From NCBI GenBank assembly GCA_017477505.1, contig JAFUVQ010000015.1, positions 150,192 through 214,191 of the forward strand: a DNA stretch of 64,000 nt, written 5' to 3'. The notes under the pieces were generated by a model. The model was given only the letters and a program-made list of their open reading frames with translations, had not been told where the DNA came from and did no database searches. Source of the stretch: Eubacterium sp. (lineage in GTDB: Bacteria > Bacillota > Clostridia > Lachnospirales > Lachnospiraceae). Below are positions 7,664 to 59,261 of the stretch, in pieces; positions within the stretch are counted from its first letter, which is position 1, and each line of letters opens with the position of its first letter. The position numbers and the translations under genes are program-made.

Positions 7664-9235
7664 ATGACTGTAGCACAGATAGGTATCATCGTTTCCATAG
7701 TCGTTTATCTTGCAGGCATGCTCTGTGTAGGATTTGCCGCTTCAAGAAAGACTAAGGACGTAGGTGATTTTTACCTTGGAGGAAGAAAACTGGGGCCGTT
7801 TGTAACGGCCATGAGTGCGGAAGCATCAGATATGAGTTCATATCTTCTTATGGGTGTTCCCGGCCTTGCTTATTTCTCGGGAATAGCGGACGCGGGCTGG
7901 ACCGCCTTTGGACTGGCTGTCGGAACATATCTAAACTGGCTTTTTGTTGCCAAAAGACTTCGTAATTATACGGCCGGCATAGATGCTATAACACTTCCTG
8001 AGTATTTCAAGAAGAGATTCAAGGATAATCACAATATTACACTTCTTATCGGCGCTATAACAATTATAGTATTCTTTGTTCCATATACGGCATCAGGATT
8101 TGCTGCCTGCGGTAAGCTCTTCGGACAGCTCTTCGGAGTTAATTACCAGCTTGCCATGATAGTGTCAGCTATCATAATAGTCGGATATACGACAACAGGT
8201 GGATTCCTTGCTGCTTCACAGACAGACTTCATTCAGTCAATCGTAATGACATTTGCACTTGTAGTAGTTCTTATTTACGGCGTTGTTAATGCCGGAGGTA
8301 TGGGAGCGGTTGTTGAAAATGCACAGAATCTTCAGGGCTTCTTTGAGATCAGTGCAACTCACAACAACGTTACCGGCGGAGCTGATGCTTACGGCATTTT
8401 CAATAAGATCACCATGTTCTGCTGGGGACTCGGTTACTTTGGTATGCCTCATATCCTTCTCAGATTCATGGCTATCGAGGATCCTAACAAGCTCAAGCTT
8501 TCAAGAAGAGTTGCTTCAGTCTGGGTAGTTATATCACTCGGTATCGCTACATTCCTCGGTGTCGTAGGACGTGCCATGACAGAGGTCGGTGTGCTTGATT
8601 CACTTATTGAGGATCCTACATCTTCATCAAAGGCTGAGACTCTTATAGTAGTTCTTGCAGATCATATTTCAAAGAATGGTTTCGGCTATGCGCTTATCGC
8701 TGGTCTTATTATCGCAGGTATTCTTGCTTCAACGATGTCAACTGCCGACTCACAGCTTATAGCTGCTTCATCCGCAGTTTCGGAGAATATCGTTCAGGAT
8801 GTATTCGGAATCAAACTCAGTGAAGTAACGGCTATGCTTACGGCACGTATCACTCTTGTAGTAGTTGCTGTTCTCGGCGTAGTGATCGCCTGGGATTCAT
8901 CGAGCTCAGTATTCAATATCGTTTCATTTGCATGGGCAGGTTTCGGTGCCGTATTCGGACCGGCTATGCTTGTATCACTTTTCTGGAAGAGAGCCAACAA
9001 GTGGGGTACTGCAGCCGGAATGATAGCAGGTATGGCTATGGTATTCATCTGGAAGTACTGTGTTCGTCCGATGGGCGGTGTCTGGGATCTTTATGAACTC
9101 GCACCTGCATTTCTTGTAGCCCTTATCGTTATAGTTGTAGTCAGCCTTATCACTCCTGCACCTGAGAAGGAGATCACAGAAGAGTTTGATAAGGTTATGA
9201 ATGTAACCAAGCAGAATGCACTTAAGGAACAGTAG
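7664..9235 (+). CDS. putP: Sodium/solute symporter, PutP-type (sodium/proline)
   Basis: This 523-residue integral membrane protein of the sodium:solute symporter family probably couples sodium entry to proline uptake. The N-terminus (FYLGGRKLGPFVTAMSAEASDMSSYLLMG, read here in two overlapping parts FYLGGRKLGPFV and AMSAEASDMSSYL) is diagnostic of PutP. The rest has about 12-13 hydrophobic spans, including ILASTMSTADSQLIAASSA, typical of the core helices. Length is slightly above E. coli PutP. AGGAGG stands 10 bases before ATG 7664. Proline is inferred from family similarity; other amino acids are possible. ung follows after only 9 bases and may be cotranscribed. Confidence 0.88.
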   Translation: MTVAQIGIIVSIVVYLAGMLCVGFAASRKTKDVGDFYLGGRKLGPFVTAMSAEASDMSSYLLMGVPGLAYFSGIADAGWTAFGLAVGTYLNWLFVAKRLRNYTAGIDAITLPEYFKKRFKDNHNITLLIGAITIIVFFVPYTASGFAACGKLFGQLFGVNYQLAMIVSAIIIVGYTTTGGFLAASQTDFIQSIVMTFALVVVLIYGVVNAGGMGAVVENAQNLQGFFEISATHNNVTGGADAYGIFNKITMFCWGLGYFGMPHILLRFMAIEDPNKLKLSRRVASVWVVISLGIATFLGVVGRAMTEVGVLDSLIEDPTSSSKAETLIVVLADHISKNGFGYALIAGLIIAGILASTMSTADSQLIAASSAVSENIVQDVFGIKLSEVTAMLTARITLVVVAVLGVVIAWDSSSSVFNIVSFAWAGFGAVFGPAMLVSLFWKRANKWGTAAGMIAGMAMVFIWKYCVRPMGGVWDLYELAPAFLVALIVIVVVSLITPAPEKEITEEFDKVMNVTKQNALKEQ

Positions 9236-9244
9236 GTAGACAGA

Positions 9245-9925
9245 ATGCCACCGATCACAAATGACTGGGCCGAAAAACTTTCGCCCGAATATAAAAAAGA
9301 TTATTACAGAAAGCTTTTTGATTTCATCGGAGCGGAATATGGTTCAAGGACCATATTCCCGCCGGGTGATGATATTTTTAATGCATTTCACCTTACACCG
9401 CTAAGCAATGTAAAGGTGGTTATAATCGGACAGGATCCGTATCATGAACCGGGGCAGGCTCACGGCCTTTCATTTTCTGTAAAGCCGGGTGTAGATATAC
9501 CGCCTTCACTTCAGAATATTTACAAAGAACTGCAAGACGAACTGGGCTGTTATATCCCGGATAACGGGTATCTTAAGAAATGGGCCGAAGAGGGGGTTCT
9601 TCTCCTCAATGCTGTTCTTACTGTGCGTGCTCATGCTGCAGCATCCCACAGAGGTAAGGGATGGGAAGAATTTACGGATGCTGCTATAAGAGCCGTAAAT
9701 GAGATAGACAGGCCGGTTGTTTATCTGCTCTGGGGAAGCTTTGCCAGAAGCAAGAAGGCTATGCTCACAAATCCTAAGCATCTTGTGCTTGAGGCTCCGC
9801 ATCCTTCGCCGCTTTCAGCCTACAGAGGTTTCTTCGGCTGTGGACATTTTAAAAAGGCAAATGAATTTCTAGTTGCAAACGGGGTGGAACCGATAGACTG
9901 GCAGATTGAGAATTTAAAGAAATAA
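9245..9925 (+). CDS. ung: Uracil-DNA glycosylase, family 1
   Basis: Ung removes uracil from DNA as the first step of base excision repair. The water-activating motif GQDPYHEPGQAHGLSFSV has its aspartate at residue 64. LLLNAVLTVRAHAAASH is the central motif, and HPSPLSAYRGFFGCGHF carries the DNA-intercalating loop with H186. The length of 226 is normal for family 1. The gene starts 9 bases after putP. Its ribosome binding signal (AGTAGGT) is modest, suggesting coupled expression. Confidence 0.97.
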   Translation: MPPITNDWAEKLSPEYKKDYYRKLFDFIGAEYGSRTIFPPGDDIFNAFHLTPLSNVKVVIIGQDPYHEPGQAHGLSFSVKPGVDIPPSLQNIYKELQDELGCYIPDNGYLKKWAEEGVLLLNAVLTVRAHAAASHRGKGWEEFTDAAIRAVNEIDRPVVYLLWGSFARSKKAMLTNPKHLVLEAPHPSPLSAYRGFFGCGHFKKANEFLVANGVEPIDWQIENLKK

Positions 9926-9940
9926 AAGAAAAAAGGTGGC

Positions 9941-9963
9941 GTGCCTGGTAGTGTGACAGGCAC
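9941..9963. repeat. Short palindrome between ung and degV
   Basis: GTGCCTG (9941-9947) and CAGGCAC (9957-9963) form a 7-bp stem without a T run. It resembles the GTGCC/GGCAC cores of small palindromic extragenic elements. Confidence 0.4.
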
Positions 9964-10002
9964 CCGAACAAGGGCAAAAGACTATTTACATGGGGGTGTC
10001 GC

Positions 10003-10863
10003 ATGAAAATTTTCACGGATATGGCATTAGATGCAGATGTTTCATTTATAATGAAACACGAAATCAGTGTGATTCCGGCAACTATAGTATCTGCCGGGGA
10101 AGAAAAAAAGTATTCTTTGGAAGATATTGATAAGGAGAGTCTTAAGGAATTCTTTGTATCAATGAAGAAAGGATCGCTTCCTCAGACGAGAGCTTTGGAT
10201 AAGGAGGCTTTCGCATCTAACTTCGAACCGGTTCTTTCAAAAGGAGAGGATGTTCTCTATATATCTGTTGCATCGGCGCTTACTTCATCCTCCGATGCCT
10301 TTGATGAGGCTGTGAAGGAGCTTAAAGTTAAGTTCCCGGATAGAAAAGTGGAGAGATTCGACAGCTGCAGTGCATCCGTTGGAATGTCAGCCCTGATTCA
10401 CGGACTGCTGGAGGAAGATTCGGAATCTGCAGGAATTACTATAGACGATGCTCTGGCAAAACTTTCAGAACTTAGAAAGAATCTCAGTGGATACTTTATC
10501 ATTGAGGATATGTTCCATATGAGAAGAGGCGGAAAATATAAAGGTGCCGATATCGTTACAGCAAATGCCATGAAGATACGACCTATCATGAGTATCAATG
10601 ATGAGGGCATTATAGAAAATGTATCGAAGCAGAGAGGCACCGGCATGGCCATGGCCTATATGGCTGATAAGGTTGCCGGGGAGCTTTCCGGTAAGAGTGG
10701 TATTACAGTATTTATCAGTCATGTTAATTCAGAGGAGAAAGCTGAAAAACTTAAAGACCTTCTCACTGAGAGGGGAGTAAATGCAGAGTTTATTATTTCC
10801 ATAATGGGGCCGGTAACCGGAACCCATGTCGGCCCCGGAGGAATAGCTATTGCATATCTTTAA
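10003..10863 (+). CDS. degV: DegV family fatty-acid-binding protein
   Basis: DegV (FakB-like) proteins bind a fatty acid and, in species with FakA, present it for phosphorylation so that exogenous fatty acids can enter phospholipids. The 286-residue sequence fits the two-domain family. It starts KIFTDMALDAD, the family's strand with a conserved aspartate, and has ISVASALTSS near residue 85, the middle RFDSCSASVGMS, and the C-terminal GPVTGTHVGPGGIAIAYL. No fakA-like kinase is adjacent, so which lipid it carries and whether it works with FakA is unknown. The start ATG at 10003 is preceded by GGGGGTG. Confidence 0.9.
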   Translation: MKIFTDMALDADVSFIMKHEISVIPATIVSAGEEKKYSLEDIDKESLKEFFVSMKKGSLPQTRALDKEAFASNFEPVLSKGEDVLYISVASALTSSSDAFDEAVKELKVKFPDRKVERFDSCSASVGMSALIHGLLEEDSESAGITIDDALAKLSELRKNLSGYFIIEDMFHMRRGGKYKGADIVTANAMKIRPIMSINDEGIIENVSKQRGTGMAMAYMADKVAGELSGKSGITVFISHVNSEEKAEKLKDLLTERGVNAEFIISIMGPVTGTHVGPGGIAIAYL

Positions 10864-52994: not shown

Positions 52995-54431
52995 ATGAAG
53001 AAAATTGCGTATGTGGCATCGGAGTGTGTTCCATTTATCAAGACGGGAGGACTGGCAGATGTAGTCGGAACACTGCCTAAAAAGTTTAACAAGAATGAAT
53101 ATGATGTTCGTATCATCATTCCTAACTATATGTGTCTTCCTGCAAAGTACAAGAATAAGATGAAATATCTTACTCATTTCTACATGGATATTGGCTGGAA
53201 GCAGCAGTATGTAGGAGTTATGTACCTTGAGTATGAAGGCGTTCCGGTTTATTTCATAGATAATGAGTATTATTTCAACGGATTCAATATTTATGGTGAT
53301 CCTAAGTGGGATCTTGAGAAGTTCTGTTACTTCAGCAAGGCAGCACTCTCTATCCTTCCTTCCATTGGATTCCAGCCGGATATAGTTCATTGCCATGACT
53401 GGCAGGCAGGTCTCATCCCTGTTTATCTTAAGACTCTTTTCGCGGGAGATCCTTTCTATAGCGGAATGAAGAGTATAATGACAATTCATAACCTTCAGTT
53501 CCAGGGCAAGTGGGATATCGATACAGTTAAAGAATATTCAGGTCTTCCTGATTATGTATTTACGCCGGACAAGCTCGAGCTGAATAAGGATGCCAGCATG
53601 CTTAAGGGCGGACTTGTATATGCAGACAAGATAACAACTGTTTCCAATACATACGCTCACGAAATCCAGACTCCGTACTATGGAGAAGGCCTTGAGGGGC
53701 TTCTTTCTGCAAGATGGCAGTCTCTCTGGGGCATCGTAAACGGAATCGATTATGATATCTATAATCCTGCAACGGATAAGAAGATAGCTCAGAATTATAC
53801 AAAGAAAACCGTTAACAAGAATAAAGTGAACAATAAGCTCGCACTTCAGAGAGAACTTGGACTTCCTGAAGATCCTAATGCTTACATGATAGGTCTTATA
53901 TCAAGACTTACCGATCAGAAGGGACTTGACCTTATCGACAGAATACTGAACGATGTTATGACGGACGGTACCCAGCTTGTAGTACTCGGAACCGGTGACA
54001 GACGTTATGAAGATATGTTCAGATATTATCAGGGCATTCATCCTGCAAAGCTTTCAGCTAATATCTATTTCAGTGATGAACTTTCTCACAGGATTTATGC
54101 AGCCTGTGATTCCATGCTCGTTCCGTCAAGATTCGAGCCGTGCGGACTTACACAGCTTATGGCCCTCCGTTACGGTGCTATGCCTATCGTAAGAGAGACC
54201 GGCGGACTTAAGGATACGGTTGAGCCATATAATGAGTTTGAAGGAACAGGAACAGGCTTTTCATTTGCAAATTATGATTCAAGAGAGCTTCTTAACACTA
54301 TCAATTATTCAAAGAGAGTATTCTTCGATTATCCTGAAGAGTGGAAGAAGATGAGAATAAGAGCAATGGAACAGGATTACAGCTGGGATACATCTGCCAA
54401 AATCTACGAGGACCTTTATAACCAGATATAA
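52995..54431 (+). CDS. glgA: Glycogen synthase (ADP-glucose-dependent, GT5)
   Basis: GlgA extends glycogen from ADP-glucose. The N-terminus has the substrate-binding KTGGLADVVGTLPK (residues 15-28). Later motifs are DIVHCHDWQAGLIPVYLKT, MTIHNLQFQGKW, GLISRLTDQKGLDL and the C-terminal SRFEPCGLTQLMALRYG with the catalytic glutamate. All 478 residues look normal. AGGAGG lies before ATG 52995. No glgC or glgP is in the window. A strong terminator follows. Confidence 0.97.
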   Translation: MKKIAYVASECVPFIKTGGLADVVGTLPKKFNKNEYDVRIIIPNYMCLPAKYKNKMKYLTHFYMDIGWKQQYVGVMYLEYEGVPVYFIDNEYYFNGFNIYGDPKWDLEKFCYFSKAALSILPSIGFQPDIVHCHDWQAGLIPVYLKTLFAGDPFYSGMKSIMTIHNLQFQGKWDIDTVKEYSGLPDYVFTPDKLELNKDASMLKGGLVYADKITTVSNTYAHEIQTPYYGEGLEGLLSARWQSLWGIVNGIDYDIYNPATDKKIAQNYTKKTVNKNKVNNKLALQRELGLPEDPNAYMIGLISRLTDQKGLDLIDRILNDVMTDGTQLVVLGTGDRRYEDMFRYYQGIHPAKLSANIYFSDELSHRIYAACDSMLVPSRFEPCGLTQLMALRYGAMPIVRETGGLKDTVEPYNEFEGTGTGFSFANYDSRELLNTINYSKRVFFDYPEEWKKMRIRAMEQDYSWDTSAKIYEDLYNQI

Positions 54432-54452: not shown

Positions 54453-54482
54453 AAAGCATGTTGCTTGCAACATGCTTTTTCT
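54453..54482 (+). terminator. Terminator after glgA
   Basis: AAAGCATGTTG (54453-54463) and CAACATGCTTT (54468-54478) form a perfect 11-bp stem with a CTTG loop and T run. Confidence 0.92.
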
Positions 54483-54498
54483 ATAACGAGGTGAAACT

Positions 54499-57417
54499 AT
54501 GCCTAAAGAGAAAATGATGATAAATACTCTGGATCAACTGATAGAGAAATTTGAAACTCATATTTCGGGTAACAAAGAGGATTTCAACGAAGAGACTAAG
54601 TATGGACTTCTTCATGGAAAAAACGGGCTGGATGAGGTTAAATCTTATATCAGTAATTTAAAAGAAAAGATGGAACCTATGTTCAGTACGGATAAACCTG
54701 TTCAGGAACCTGAGCTTGACGTATTAAAGAAAGATTATGATGATTTCATCAAAAAGTTCAATGCGTTCAAGAATATGTATGCTGAGAAGAGTGATTCCAA
54801 AGAGTTAATGTCCTGGTTTGAGGTTTTTGATACAAGAATCAAGGATGACAGGAATGTCCTTAAACAGGTTAATCTTGAGGAAGACAGGCATCTCGGACTG
54901 AATGCCATCCATGATAAGTATACTCAGTACCCGAACGGTTATGGCTATAATGACCGTATCAATAAAATTATGAGAGTGGAAAAAAGAGCGGGGCAGTATG
55001 GTGCGCTCGGTAATTCTCTCGGGGAGAAGTCTGCCCTTAAGAGGCTTTCTGATAAGATAAATGAAATGAAAGAAAGCAATACTCTTCTTGATAAAGAAGA
55101 GACAAAGAATCTCATAAATATTTATGCCGATGCGGCAGTAGAGATTAAGAAGTCTGCTGATGCAGCTAAGGATGATGTGAATAAGGTTGAATTCTACAGG
55201 AGGATGATGAAGAAATTCTCCAAGGATTACACTGCGCTTCATACATATAAGAACAGCCTTGATAAACAGGCTGAACCAAAACTTAAGACTATCACCCAGT
55301 TCTATGATGATTCAAGAACCAGGACTGTAAGCCTTCCCGAAACCGAGATGACAGAAATTCCAAAGAGTGGTGCCGGTCAGAGTATAAGATACAAGGTTGA
55401 TGTCAAATGTTTTGATGAACCTGTCGATGGCGTCAGGAAGGGTGATATATTTACAGGGTATTTTACAGCGGATGTTAGAAACAAATCTACAAAAAAACAT
55501 AAATTTATTGAGGATGAGAATGAAGCAAAATGTCTTATCTCAGAAGATGCCCATAAAGGAATCATAGATTACCTTTCCCGGAAATATCCGGGTGCCAGAG
55601 ATTTTATTCAAAATGATCTGGCAAATAATGCTGATGTTCATGCGTATAAGTCTATCAGTAATATAGCTTCTTATCTAAGAACCCAGAGTAACGATTTCAT
55701 AGCAAATCACACCATTGAGACAGGTGTGGCTTCACTTTTGAGTTATTATAATAATTGTGACTATGCTTCTGATTCGGGAGTAGAAACACTTAAGTCCATT
55801 GATACCCATGAGAAATATTGTGCATACGTTGAATATGCGAGTCTTTATCAGAAACAGCATCTGTCCGAAGGCATTAACAGAAATATTAAGATTGACAGTG
55901 CGAGTGCGCAAGGACAGAGAAATGCACTTACAAGTTCTCTGGCTGATATCTTAGGATGCGGGGACATAGTTGCATTTGCAGAAAAGATGAAGGTTGAAGC
56001 TCTTGAAAATGGTAAGAAGGTGACGAAGACTGGCGTTCTTATGATGCCTGCCAAGGGCTTTGATAATAATACAGCTGACTGCAAAAGTCCTTTTGTCGAA
56101 ATGAATCAGTTCGCAACTGAAGGTCAGACAGGCCTTATGAAGAGTGTAGGAACACTTCAGCTCCTCGACTATATCATAGGAAATGTTGACAGGCACGCCG
56201 GAAATTTTTTCTATCAGTTTGATGAAAATGGAAAGATGATAGGCGTTCAGGGTATTGATAATGATACGATATGTGGCGCAAATCCTAATCTGGACAGACA
56301 GAGTTCGTCGGTTGCTTTTGAGAACTTAAGGATGATACCGAAGTCCGTGGCAGATTCTGTTAAGAATCTTAAACCTGAAGTTTTTGAGGTGCTTATGCAG
56401 GGTTACGATCTTAATCCGAAGGAGATAGAGACTGCTGTAAACAGATTTAAGGATCTTAAGGTGAAGATTAAGGAATCTGAAAAGGCATATGAAGGTACGG
56501 AACCCGGATTCCTGGATCCGAAGATACCGCGAATTGTTCCGGATAATGAAATGGACAAATATTCATTTAACGAACAGCTTGCATATATGGAGAAACCAAG
56601 GAACAATCATGGTAATCTTTTCGGGAAAATTGCCAATAAGACACTTGACTGCACAAAAAGAATAAATTCAATGATCAGTAACGATTTTAAAGAATGCAGT
56701 AATCTTGCTGCGGATATTGCGATAGCAAGGACTGAGGCAGGGCCGGGCAGTCTCATTAACGAGCTTAAGAAATTTAATACTATAGCCAAAAAAGATAAGA
56801 ACTTTAAAAAGAACAAAAAGAATGGTTCGGCAAGGGCGCTGATTAATAATACTATCAGTCTTTTTGATAACAGATACAGAGATGTGGAACTTGTTTTTGC
56901 CAGGAAAGATAAAAACAACATTCGGATTCATGAAAAGGGACAGGGCTATGATTTTTTCAAAGGAATGCTTGAAAAGTCTCTTGATTCTGCAAATGCATAT
57001 CTTTTAAATAATTCCGACAAAGTTCTGGATTATCAGACACTTAAGGCAGAGGTGGATTATTATAAGGCAGAGGGCAATAAGGAAGAACTGATAAAGGCTG
57101 AAAGGGAGCTGAAGAAGCTCGAAAAGACCGATGATGTTAAGCTTTACAAGTCGGCGGTCAGAATCAGAGATAAGGTTACGGAACAACTTTCCAAAATGCA
57201 GAAGATTGAAAAGACTGTAAAAGATATGGAAGAAGGCTCGCGTATCTATGATTCATATAAAAATCAGAAAGAGGCGAAAAATTCGGAATATCTGAACAGT
57301 CAGTATCGTGCTGATACTCTTAAACGTATCAGTGAGATTAACGGCAGGAACAGGATTAACAGTGTTGACAGACAGAAGAATGTGGAAGTTAACAAAACTG
57401 ATGCCAGGACGATGTAG
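54499..57417 (+). CDS. Large protein with an atypical kinase-like signature and flanking coiled coils (function unknown)
   Basis: I do not recognise this 972-residue protein as a named family. Residues 1-260 and 770-960 are charged, lysine/glutamate-rich and helical, with coiled-coil character. The centre has LLDYIIGNVDRHAGNFFYQF, with D564-R565-H566 and N569, followed by GVQGIDNDTICG with D587-N588-D589. This D-R-H-x-x-N plus aspartate pattern is that of the catalytic and metal-binding loops of HipA, PI3/PI4-kinase and FAM20-like kinases. NALTSSLADILGCGDIVAFA about 70-100 residues earlier fits the small helix-rich part those proteins have before the loop. No signal peptide or membrane span is seen. 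It follows the glgA terminator by 16 bases. A phosphotransferase function is an inference. Confidence 0.55.
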   Translation: MPKEKMMINTLDQLIEKFETHISGNKEDFNEETKYGLLHGKNGLDEVKSYISNLKEKMEPMFSTDKPVQEPELDVLKKDYDDFIKKFNAFKNMYAEKSDSKELMSWFEVFDTRIKDDRNVLKQVNLEEDRHLGLNAIHDKYTQYPNGYGYNDRINKIMRVEKRAGQYGALGNSLGEKSALKRLSDKINEMKESNTLLDKEETKNLINIYADAAVEIKKSADAAKDDVNKVEFYRRMMKKFSKDYTALHTYKNSLDKQAEPKLKTITQFYDDSRTRTVSLPETEMTEIPKSGAGQSIRYKVDVKCFDEPVDGVRKGDIFTGYFTADVRNKSTKKHKFIEDENEAKCLISEDAHKGIIDYLSRKYPGARDFIQNDLANNADVHAYKSISNIASYLRTQSNDFIANHTIETGVASLLSYYNNCDYASDSGVETLKSIDTHEKYCAYVEYASLYQKQHLSEGINRNIKIDSASAQGQRNALTSSLADILGCGDIVAFAEKMKVEALENGKKVTKTGVLMMPAKGFDNNTADCKSPFVEMNQFATEGQTGLMKSVGTLQLLDYIIGNVDRHAGNFFYQFDENGKMIGVQGIDNDTICGANPNLDRQSSSVAFENLRMIPKSVADSVKNLKPEVFEVLMQGYDLNPKEIETAVNRFKDLKVKIKESEKAYEGTEPGFLDPKIPRIVPDNEMDKYSFNEQLAYMEKPRNNHGNLFGKIANKTLDCTKRINSMISNDFKECSNLAADIAIARTEAGPGSLINELKKFNTIAKKDKNFKKNKKNGSARALINNTISLFDNRYRDVELVFARKDKNNIRIHEKGQGYDFFKGMLEKSLDSANAYLLNNSDKVLDYQTLKAEVDYYKAEGNKEELIKAERELKKLEKTDDVKLYKSAVRIRDKVTEQLSKMQKIEKTVKDMEEGSRIYDSYKNQKEAKNSEYLNSQYRADTLKRISEINGRNRINSVDRQKNVEVNKTDARTM

Positions 57418-57494: not shown

Positions 57495-59261
57495 ATGGCA
57501 TACGATGGATTTACATTAGCTTGTATTGAAAATGAGATTAATAAACGGGTAGTAGGGGGCAGAATCAGTAAGATTCAGCAGCCTGAAAAAGATGAAATTG
57601 TTATAATTACGAAGAAGGAAGGAGAGACGTCCCGTCTCTCTTTCTCTGCTGACGCGAGCCTTCCGCTGGTGATGTTTACGGATGAGGTAAAAACTTCCCC
57701 GCTTACAGCACCTACTTTTCTTATGCTTCTCAGAAAGCATATAGGAAGCGGTAAGGTTATCTCAGTAACCAGGCCCGGAAATGAAAGAATCCTGGAACTT
57801 ACCATAGAACACTATGACGAGATGGGTGACCTGAAGCAGAAGAAACTCATAGTAGAAGTGATGGGACGTCACAGCAATATCATCTTCGTTAACAGTGACG
57901 GAATGATCCTGGACAGCATAAAGCATATTTCAAATGCGGTGAGCAGTGTAAGAGAAGTGCTTCCGGGACGTGAATACGAAATACCTCCGTCAGGCGGGAA
58001 GAAGGATCCTTTTACGGTAACGGAAGATGAGTTCCGGGATGAGATTCTCAGCAAACCTGTAGGAGTAGCAAAAGCAATATGCAATTCATTTCAGGGCTTT
58101 TCATATGTTATGGCAGCAGAGCTTTGCTTCAGAGCTGGGATTGATGCGGACATTAGTACTGATTATCTGAGAACCGGGTCAGGACAGGGAACTGATAAAC
58201 TCGTCAGTCTTTATAAGGAGTTTGACACACTTATTAGGACTGTGAAAGAAGGTGCATTTTCACCGGCAATCTATCATGAAGGCGGGGTGCCGAAAGAATT
58301 CTCCGTTTATCCTATGACCATGTACAGAAATATGGAGAAAGAGGAATTCGATTCCGTATCGGAGCTTATAAATGCATTTTACAGTAAGAAATCAGCTGCG
58401 GAAAGGATCAGGCAGAAATCCGCAGATCTCCGACAGATCATTAATACACATGTAGAGAGGGCCGCCAAAAAATATGATCTTCAGAATCTTCAGATGAAGG
58501 ATACTGAGGATATGGATAAATACCGTATCTACGGTGAACTTATCAATACCTATGGTTATTCGGTGAAGGATGGTGACGAAGTACTTAAATGTACAAATTA
58601 CTACGATAATACTGAAGTGACTATAAGGCTTGATAAAGATAAAACAGTTGCCCAGAATGCACAGAAATACTTTGAGAAGTATAATAAAAAGAAGAGAACG
58701 AAGGAAGCTCTCTCAACCCTTCTTAAGACAACAGGAGAGGAACTGGATTATCTGCTTTCGGTCAGGCATTCTCTGGATATAGCGGAACATGAGGAGGATG
58801 TAAATGCCATAAAGACAGAGCTTATGGAGAGCGGGATCATAAAAAAGACCGGAGGCTCGAAGAAGGATAAGATGGCAAAGAAATCAAAGCCGCTTCATTT
58901 CATTACAAAAGACGGCTATGATATCTATGTCGGAAGAAATAATCTTCAGAATGACCAGCTTACATTTAAATTTGCAAATGGAAATGATATGTGGTTCCAT
59001 TCCAAGAAGATGCCGGGAAGCCATGTGATCGTCAAACGTCATGGAGCAGAAGAACTGCCGGATCATATATATGAGATAGCGGCAGGAGTTGCGGCTTATT
59101 TTTCATCAGGTAAGGAAAGCCCGAGAGTAGAGATAGATTATACCGAAAGAAAGAATCTGAAGAAGCCGCCGGCTGCGAATCCCGGATATGTAATATATCA
59201 CACCAATTATTCCATGATGGCGGAACCGTCGCTCAGCGGCACAGAGCGAGTGGAAGATTGA
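57495..59261 (+). CDS. rqcH: Rqc2 homologue RqcH (NFACT / FbpA family)
   Basis: RqcH binds stalled 50S subunits and adds alanine tails to stuck peptides for degradation; older annotations call it fibronectin-binding protein. The N-terminal NFACT-N domain (DGFTLACIENEINKRVVGGR) is followed by helical coiled parts (about 290-440) and the C-terminal NFACT-R domain (about 460-588; NDMWFHSKKMPGSHVIVKR; YTERKNLKKPPAANPG). All 588 residues are typical. AAGGT is the ribosome site before ATG 57495. Confidence 0.95.
   Translation: MAYDGFTLACIENEINKRVVGGRISKIQQPEKDEIVIITKKEGETSRLSFSADASLPLVMFTDEVKTSPLTAPTFLMLLRKHIGSGKVISVTRPGNERILELTIEHYDEMGDLKQKKLIVEVMGRHSNIIFVNSDGMILDSIKHISNAVSSVREVLPGREYEIPPSGGKKDPFTVTEDEFRDEILSKPVGVAKAICNSFQGFSYVMAAELCFRAGIDADISTDYLRTGSGQGTDKLVSLYKEFDTLIRTVKEGAFSPAIYHEGGVPKEFSVYPMTMYRNMEKEEFDSVSELINAFYSKKSAAERIRQKSADLRQIINTHVERAAKKYDLQNLQMKDTEDMDKYRIYGELINTYGYSVKDGDEVLKCTNYYDNTEVTIRLDKDKTVAQNAQKYFEKYNKKKRTKEALSTLLKTTGEELDYLLSVRHSLDIAEHEEDVNAIKTELMESGIIKKTGGSKKDKMAKKSKPLHFITKDGYDIYVGRNNLQNDQLTFKFANGNDMWFHSKKMPGSHVIVKRHGAEELPDHIYEIAAGVAAYFSSGKESPRVEIDYTERKNLKKPPAANPGYVIYHTNYSMMAEPSLSGTERVED

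Follow-up and report, generated by a model that had tools for sequence, protein, structure and literature searches.

A stretch of 64,000 nucleotides from Eubacterium sp. (contig JAFUVQ010000015.1, positions 150,192 to 214,191; referred to here as the window) contains a forward-strand open reading frame (ORF) at 54499..57417 that encodes a 972-residue kinase-like protein, P0001. The ORF starts with ATG, is preceded by a GAGG stretch that was read from the sequence, and has the coordinates and length given in a preliminary description of this DNA. It lies between two genes of the same strand, glgA for glycogen synthase (52995..54431; Glyco_transf_5, E 1.8e-84) and rqcH for an NFACT/RqcH-type protein (57495..59261; NFACT_N, E 3.8e-144), and the HipB-type gene that had been reported missing next door is indeed absent.

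Alignment of the family places a catalytic loop, D564-R565-H566-A-G-N569, at 56188..56205 and a metal-binding motif, D587-N588-D589 (preceded by G585-I586), at 56257..56265, both on the forward strand and at the residue numbers first proposed. Conservation was counted over 45 C-terminal lobe (C-lobe) domains from 41 proteins, which comprise P0001 and 40 relatives and include four proteins with two domains. D557, R565 and N588 are present in all 45 domains, D564, N569, D587 and D589 in 44, and H566 in 40; the five domains that depart from DRH..N/DND consist of four with H566N, one of which also carries D589E, and one degenerate RRD..K/END. The pattern is more than a chance occurrence, and the aspartates and the asparagine, whose retention in homologues had been set in advance as a test of the kinase assignment, persist down to approximately 25–30% identity. 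The arrangement that typifies the protein kinase-like (PKL) superfamily, with a catalytic Asp, a following Asn and a metal-binding Asp in the right order, is thus found with 44 of 45 domains at each position. Judged from this catalytic centre, P0001 is very probably an active kinase or phosphotransferase, in which D564 would act as the catalytic base and N569 together with D587/D589 would hold the metal.

The preliminary description had assigned the rest of the protein to long coiled-coil arms, an account that proved incomplete because it overlooked a conserved N-lobe-like module and the stretch that separates it from the C-lobe. Residues 1-155 (54499..54963) form an N-terminal extension that is restricted to this subfamily: of 61 genomes searched, just four (that of the window, G057, G005 and G015) matched strongly, and G027 gave one marginal match (E 0.004). 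A helical segment (residues 156-261; 54964..55281), where many relatives start (MP..R..KR), leads into the predicted kinase N-lobe (residues 262-334; 55282..55500; SRTR...GAGxSxR...GYFT). This is followed by a variable inter-lobe stretch (residues 335-465; 55501..55893), mostly helical according to low-confidence models, and by an alpha-C-like helix with two strands (residues 470-520; 55906..56058; RNALTSSLADILGC...GVLMMPAKG), in which R474 is found in 43, N475 in 44, and G512 and M515 in all of the 45 domains. Residues 700-972 (56596..57414) form a C-terminal helical region with a basic tail. The tail is a family trend, the net charge of the last 40 residues averaging +4.4 in the 41 family proteins versus +0.1 (s.d. 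3.8) in a mechanically called comparison set, spurious ORFs included, of 311 ORFs with 250 residues or more. All of these segments are encoded on the forward strand.

The module at residues 262-334, which ends in G[YF]FT, lies before the C-lobe wherever the ORF takes in the N-terminal half of the member. N-lobe and C-lobe are repeated together in all four two-kinase proteins, although one of the eight copies is weak (E 0.03). That weak N-lobe belongs to the degenerate domain mentioned above and was omitted from a set of 42 N-lobe-to-C-lobe units, as were L059 (split over two ORFs) and L062 (cut by the end of its stretch), whose N-lobes are on adjoining pieces. Within these units R297 and F322 are invariant (42/42), while T323 and R474 occur in 40 and 41, respectively. 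In contrast, among the alignment columns that P0001 occupies, no Lys or Glu between residues 262 and 557 reaches 80% of the 42 units. Arg297 (codon 55387..55389, forward strand), invariant in the glycine-rich module, is therefore proposed from the alignment as a candidate ATP-gripping residue that would substitute for the lysine that is not conserved. WNK kinases provide a case in which the lysine has been relocated to another strand. Membership of the PKL superfamily is not excluded by the missing pair, because in Lani_1194, a PKL family of Legionella, Arg is reported to replace the catalytic Lys and a Glu could not be identified (PMC9758233).

This region can be compared with a pair of kinase-like proteins encoded next to each other on a 156-kb viral contig (L078:4876-6339, 487 residues, and L078:6925-8418, 497 residues), the second of which has DGH for DRH. 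The family aligns with this pair from alpha-C through to the end of the C-lobe (hhalign, P 7e-15). In this alignment RN, with which alpha-C opens, faces RE of the phage pair, and N475 faces the phage Glu; FFT (T323) falls opposite the phage IYK, which contains the Lys, in a reading made by eye only. Loss of both the ATP-binding Lys and the alpha-C Glu could reflect a pseudokinase, or a PKL enzyme that catalyzes another transfer such as AMPylation or glutamylation, and both of these substitutions, together with the lack of any Lys or Glu at the 80% level, are consistent with such a protein. The catalytic Asp, the Asn and both metal-binding Asp residues are, however, almost invariant, the catalytic motif has been lost in only one of 45 domains, and Arg297 is invariant and could take the place of the lysine, so that we consider this explanation unlikely. 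The degenerate domain is the first of two in L075:7225-10683; it lacks the catalytic motif (RRD..K, END) and seemingly also the N-lobe Arg, and is likely to be an internal pseudokinase.

Two AlphaFold models of P0001 were obtained. The best structural alignments of the second were to PI4K-II, FAM20, CtkA, HipA and PI3K, so the predicted fold appears kinase-like, in line with the preliminary description, albeit at low confidence (mean pLDDT, the predicted local distance difference test score, of 51). Among the relatives, L055 (27.9 bits) and L053 (31.6 bits) exceed the cut-off of 27.1 for the Pfam family PI3_PI4_kinase (PF00454), and L057 (31.7 bits) passes the cut-off of 26.8 for Fam20C (PF06702), a value at which L053 stands exactly. 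The best overall explanation, which we regard as probable, is that P0001 is a phosphotransferase of the PKL fold from the PI4K-II/FAM20 branch; that it is of an effector type is the more tentative part of this reading. The nearest relatives comprise kinases of lipids as well as of proteins. ATP would be held between the N-lobe (262-334) and the C-lobe (approximately 470-660), which the helical stretch keeps apart, with Arg297 gripping it in place of lysine, and the substrate would be either a protein or a lipid of the phosphoinositide kind, more likely than not one that belongs to a different cell.

Several results weigh against this assignment. Both models are poor (mean pLDDT of 47 for the first), and a Foldseek search of the PDB with the first model returned nothing at E≤0.001; the top row, the kinase Ron13 (E 0.16), was not used as evidence. 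The second model likewise had no match at E≤0.001 among viral structures, where the first row is named as a Nudix hydrolase (E 0.0056, probability 0.98) and two further rows are phage proteins named as PI3K/PI4K (E 0.011 with probability 0.51, and E 0.024 with probability 1.00). P0001 itself scores 24.2 bits against PF00454, which is below the cut-off. The N-lobe strands were assigned by eye; MAFFT and global hhalign did not superpose the glycine-rich parts with those of the phage kinases. The canonical Lys/Glu pair cannot be made out, which would permit a different chemistry or a pseudokinase function. P0001 had no reported match to PF06702, no family in NCBIfam, and only three chance-level matches in a phmmer search of the PDB (E≥0.24).

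Comparison with known kinases indicates where the family stands apart. With respect to PI4K-II and PF00454, P0001 differs in its sub-cut-off score, in its inter-lobe helical stretch, in its long N- and C-terminal arms and in the absence of a conserved Lys from the N-lobe-like module. FAM20 kinases are extracellular and have their Lys in beta-3. P0001, by contrast with FAM20C and FAM20A (PF06702), has no apparent signal peptide and features IDND where FAM20 has LDN. No export signal was apparent in P0001, although no dedicated signal-peptide predictor was applied, and no transmembrane span was found by Kyte–Doolittle analysis (19-residue window, maximum 1.42), which bears out the earlier statement on membrane spans. 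That statement had been accompanied by a likening of the catalytic pattern to HipA, PI3/PI4 kinases and FAM20; the kinase-type character holds, but HipA is a more distant match to the family than are PI4K-II/FAM20 and the phage PI3/4K-like proteins. A HipA/HipB toxin–antitoxin system was rejected: P0001 lacks the HipB partner, no neighbour recurs among its 40 relatives, and the HipA of the window genome, which has DDHxxN where the P0001 family has DRHxxN, aligns with the family at an hhalign probability of only 0.8%. A search of the window genome with HipA_C (PF07804) found four other places, which include neither the P0001 gene nor its two paralogues. CtkA, another bacterial kinase of the HipA-like kind, was grouped with HipA in this comparison.

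The Legionella kinases LepB, AnkK/OpiA, MavQ, Lmor_1975 and Lani_1194 were likened to P0001 by their published description rather than by sequence (PMC9758233). Legionella possesses PI-kinase-like effectors (PMC9758233), and in Lmor_1975, which is placed near the PI kinases, an alpha-helical insertion of approximately 150 residues is reported to part the N-lobe from the C-lobe, and the C-terminal domains are helical as well (PMC9758233). P0001 may have a similar layout, its conserved lobes being parted by residues 335-465, for which helices are predicted with low model confidence. Unlike the P0001 family, Lmor_1975 keeps the Lys/Glu pair in the account given there (PMC9758233). Lani_1194 resembles the family in its Arg for Lys and its lack of an identifiable Glu, but in the same account it is distinguished by a methyltransferase fusion and conserved neighbours (PMC9758233).

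Phage PI3K/PI4K-like proteins (the L078 pair, phrog_3162 and BFVD entries) are also among the closest known proteins, the L078 pair through the hhalign alignment given above. This pair differs in that it has kept the Lys (IYKQD, by eye) and the alpha-C Glu (REEAA), and the L077 and L078 phage proteins are short (381-497 residues versus 972 in P0001). These distant kinase-like proteins, and the matches of phrog_3162 to 26 of 34 family domains (best E 1e-7), raise the question of whether P0001 is prophage- or plasmid-borne cargo. This is very improbable, given that P0001 was unmatched in 50,697 phage and 72,556 plasmid records (E≤1e-3), that viral contigs give only two distant matches, and that its neighbours in the window are housekeeping genes.

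A search of the genus with P0001 gave matches in 28 of 61 genomes (its own included), amounting to 84 rows with at most six per genome; some of the rows are pieces of one protein and some of the 33 genomes without a match are incomplete. The window genome has three matches on three contigs. Forty stretches selected from the 84 rows yielded the 40 further family proteins, after three of 43 matching ORFs had been dropped (L041, which is 96% identical to L040, and L005/L006, which are the same genes as L043/L045). When a 34-domain profile (E≤1e-8) was run against 397 genomes of the bacterial family, which represent 334 genera, 21 genomes from 20 genera contained the protein family; among 398 genomes drawn from the phylum two did, namely its own and another from the same bacterial family. 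The two named relatives are uncultured Lachnospiraceae. The listings of literature searches showed no paper on the protein family, which has so far been seen in Lachnospiraceae, is multiplied and patchy, and is apparently undescribed.

The junction between glgA and rqcH was compared across 30 rqcH loci taken from the 59 genomes that have rqcH. In 28 of the 29 other loci glgA is upstream of rqcH, at most 260 bases away in 27 and 1.1 kb away in one (L112), while the remaining locus (L120) has no glgA in the flank examined. The kinase gene is absent from the junction in all 29, and G003 and G059, the nearest relatives by rqcH, have a plain junction without it. The kinase gene has been inserted between housekeeping genes at the window locus. 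Relatives have no recurrent partner gene either: the largest non-family neighbour cluster touches five of 40 family genes, in mixed positions, and shared surroundings are confined to one orthologous pair (L052/L064) and to L070 and L076, which have the same two large genes close by.

Patchy, multi-copy, lone genes are also what would be expected of an intracellular defence or growth-arrest kinase that detects phage or stress through its helical arms and then modifies a target in its own cell, in the manner of an orphan HipA-type abortive-infection protein. Marginal matches to the PADLOC profile PDC-M03A (E≤0.1 in two of 23 members, with 4e-4 as the best value; 0.0078 for residues 310-430 of L068) point the same way, but these are near noise and none involves P0001, and no recurrent partner or toxin–antitoxin mate accompanies the family, which makes this role rather doubtful. 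The close pair L040/L041 (G015/G005), with dN of 0.019 and dS of 0.161 (nonsynonymous and synonymous divergence), has a dN/dS of approximately 0.12 overall, lowest in the C-lobe (approximately 0.05) and highest in the C-terminal region. This shows that the pair is under purifying selection, which is strongest in the C-lobe. Such selection, along with the resemblance to FAM20 and the presence of a SpoIIE-type phosphatase where one gene island ends, would suit a large cytosolic signalling kinase that serves the cell's own physiology (CotH/FAM20-like, with a structural-protein substrate) and has no part in conflict; the variable location and the lack of a match in 33 of 61 genus genomes, some of them incomplete, render this decidedly unlikely.

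P0001 had been described as unlinked to any known system, which holds for the copy in the window but not for some relatives, which sit among other giant proteins. Family members in G029 and G022 lie among very large ORFs. The island on G029:C43 (stretches L171, L172, L136, L061, L062, L137, L138 and L173) has 33 ORFs of at least 600 residues within approximately 126 kb (about 3-129 kb), two of which are family kinases; the ORFs reach 2881 residues, and many start with MKE- and end in basic tails. Nine proteins of this island were scanned, giving the SpoIIE-type phosphatase (E 3.3e-45), which lies at the island's edge, an ADP-ribosylglycohydrolase inside it (E 2.8e-37) and no convincing family for the other seven. 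Ten more proteins from the G029 and G022 regions gave one calpain-like domain (E 2.4e-9), one HD-domain sensor and no convincing family for eight. Modules are shared between kinase and non-kinase giants in three kinds (L049-L061, L055-L073 and L056/L057-L066). On G022:C24, a kinase-family member has beside it both the calpain-like protein (E 2.4e-9) and a giant (L073:4813-7668, L073:10171-13224, L135); the giant has a marginal C39-like match (0.047) and a region in common with the 2497-residue kinase L055.

The family has the look of an effector arsenal: it is expanded and patchy, its genes are inserted singly, and it shares modules and keeps company with other modification enzymes. P0001 might therefore be an effector that acts, most likely in another cell, within a set of very large soluble proteins, a proposal that stays tentative because no export signal and no consistent link to the type VIIb secretion system (T7SSb) or a contractile injection system (eCIS) were found. 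It is conceivable, if somewhat doubtful, that Lachnospiraceae hold an arsenal of very large (approximately 650-2900 residues) soluble effectors that includes Arg-for-Lys kinases, calpain-like proteases and many Pfam-less proteins; its members may exchange modules, frequently have MKE- starts and basic tails, and be exported by a novel route. A calpain-like gene occurs in ten of 61 genomes (eight over and two below the Pfam cut-off), nine of which bear the kinase (p 0.0037). The contrary evidence includes a weaker association in genomes at least 90% complete (p 0.085), the relatedness of the genomes and lack of correction for several tests in all of these associations, and the position of the window copy outside any giant-protein island. 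A T7SSb substrate was rejected, with 19 of 28 carrier genomes lacking EssC over cut-off (EssC passes in 14 of 61 genomes, nine of them kinase-bearing and the window genome included; Fisher p 0.14), as was an eCIS, with Pvc16_N in seven of 61 genomes but in only two of the 28 that bear the kinase.

If active, the family would represent a kinase-fold branch that works without the hallmark lysine–glutamate pair, with Arg297 as a candidate substitute checkable by one mutation. The family also draws attention to giant modification enzymes of Lachnospiraceae, a set for which general family libraries have no entry, and if the cells of a host, a protozoan or a competitor are what these giants act on, a new question arises as to how Lachnospiraceae deal with their surroundings.

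An MKE start, or MKE[VNIQ] within the first 40 residues, occurs in 14 of 29 ORFs of at least 600 residues in the islands versus seven of 88 elsewhere; P0001 does not have the motif. The start pattern MKEV[DE], which was picked after the islands had been seen, was found genome-wide 79 times in the 28 kinase-bearing genomes (12 of these in G029) versus 39 times in a reversed control, and 43 versus 51 times, with no excess, in the other 33 genomes; many of the 30 loci displayed are not gene starts. The window genome encodes a 966-residue protein at the site of its calpain-like match (L133:8019-10919, on G000:C10; Peptidase_C2, 25.3 bits, over cut-off), and the called ORF of this protein reaches MKEVDE- after six residues. 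In L059, a family gene is split over two overlapping reading frames (L059:6753-8708 and 8677-10641), which could reflect either a decayed copy or a sequencing error. At the window locus, a hairpin followed by a T run (54453..54478, forward strand, read from the sequence) lies between glgA and the kinase gene; it was missed by a terminator scan that requires a loop of at least three, and is a probable glgA terminator. The G+C content of the kinase gene stretch (38-40%) is slightly lower than that of both flanks (roughly 40-43%).
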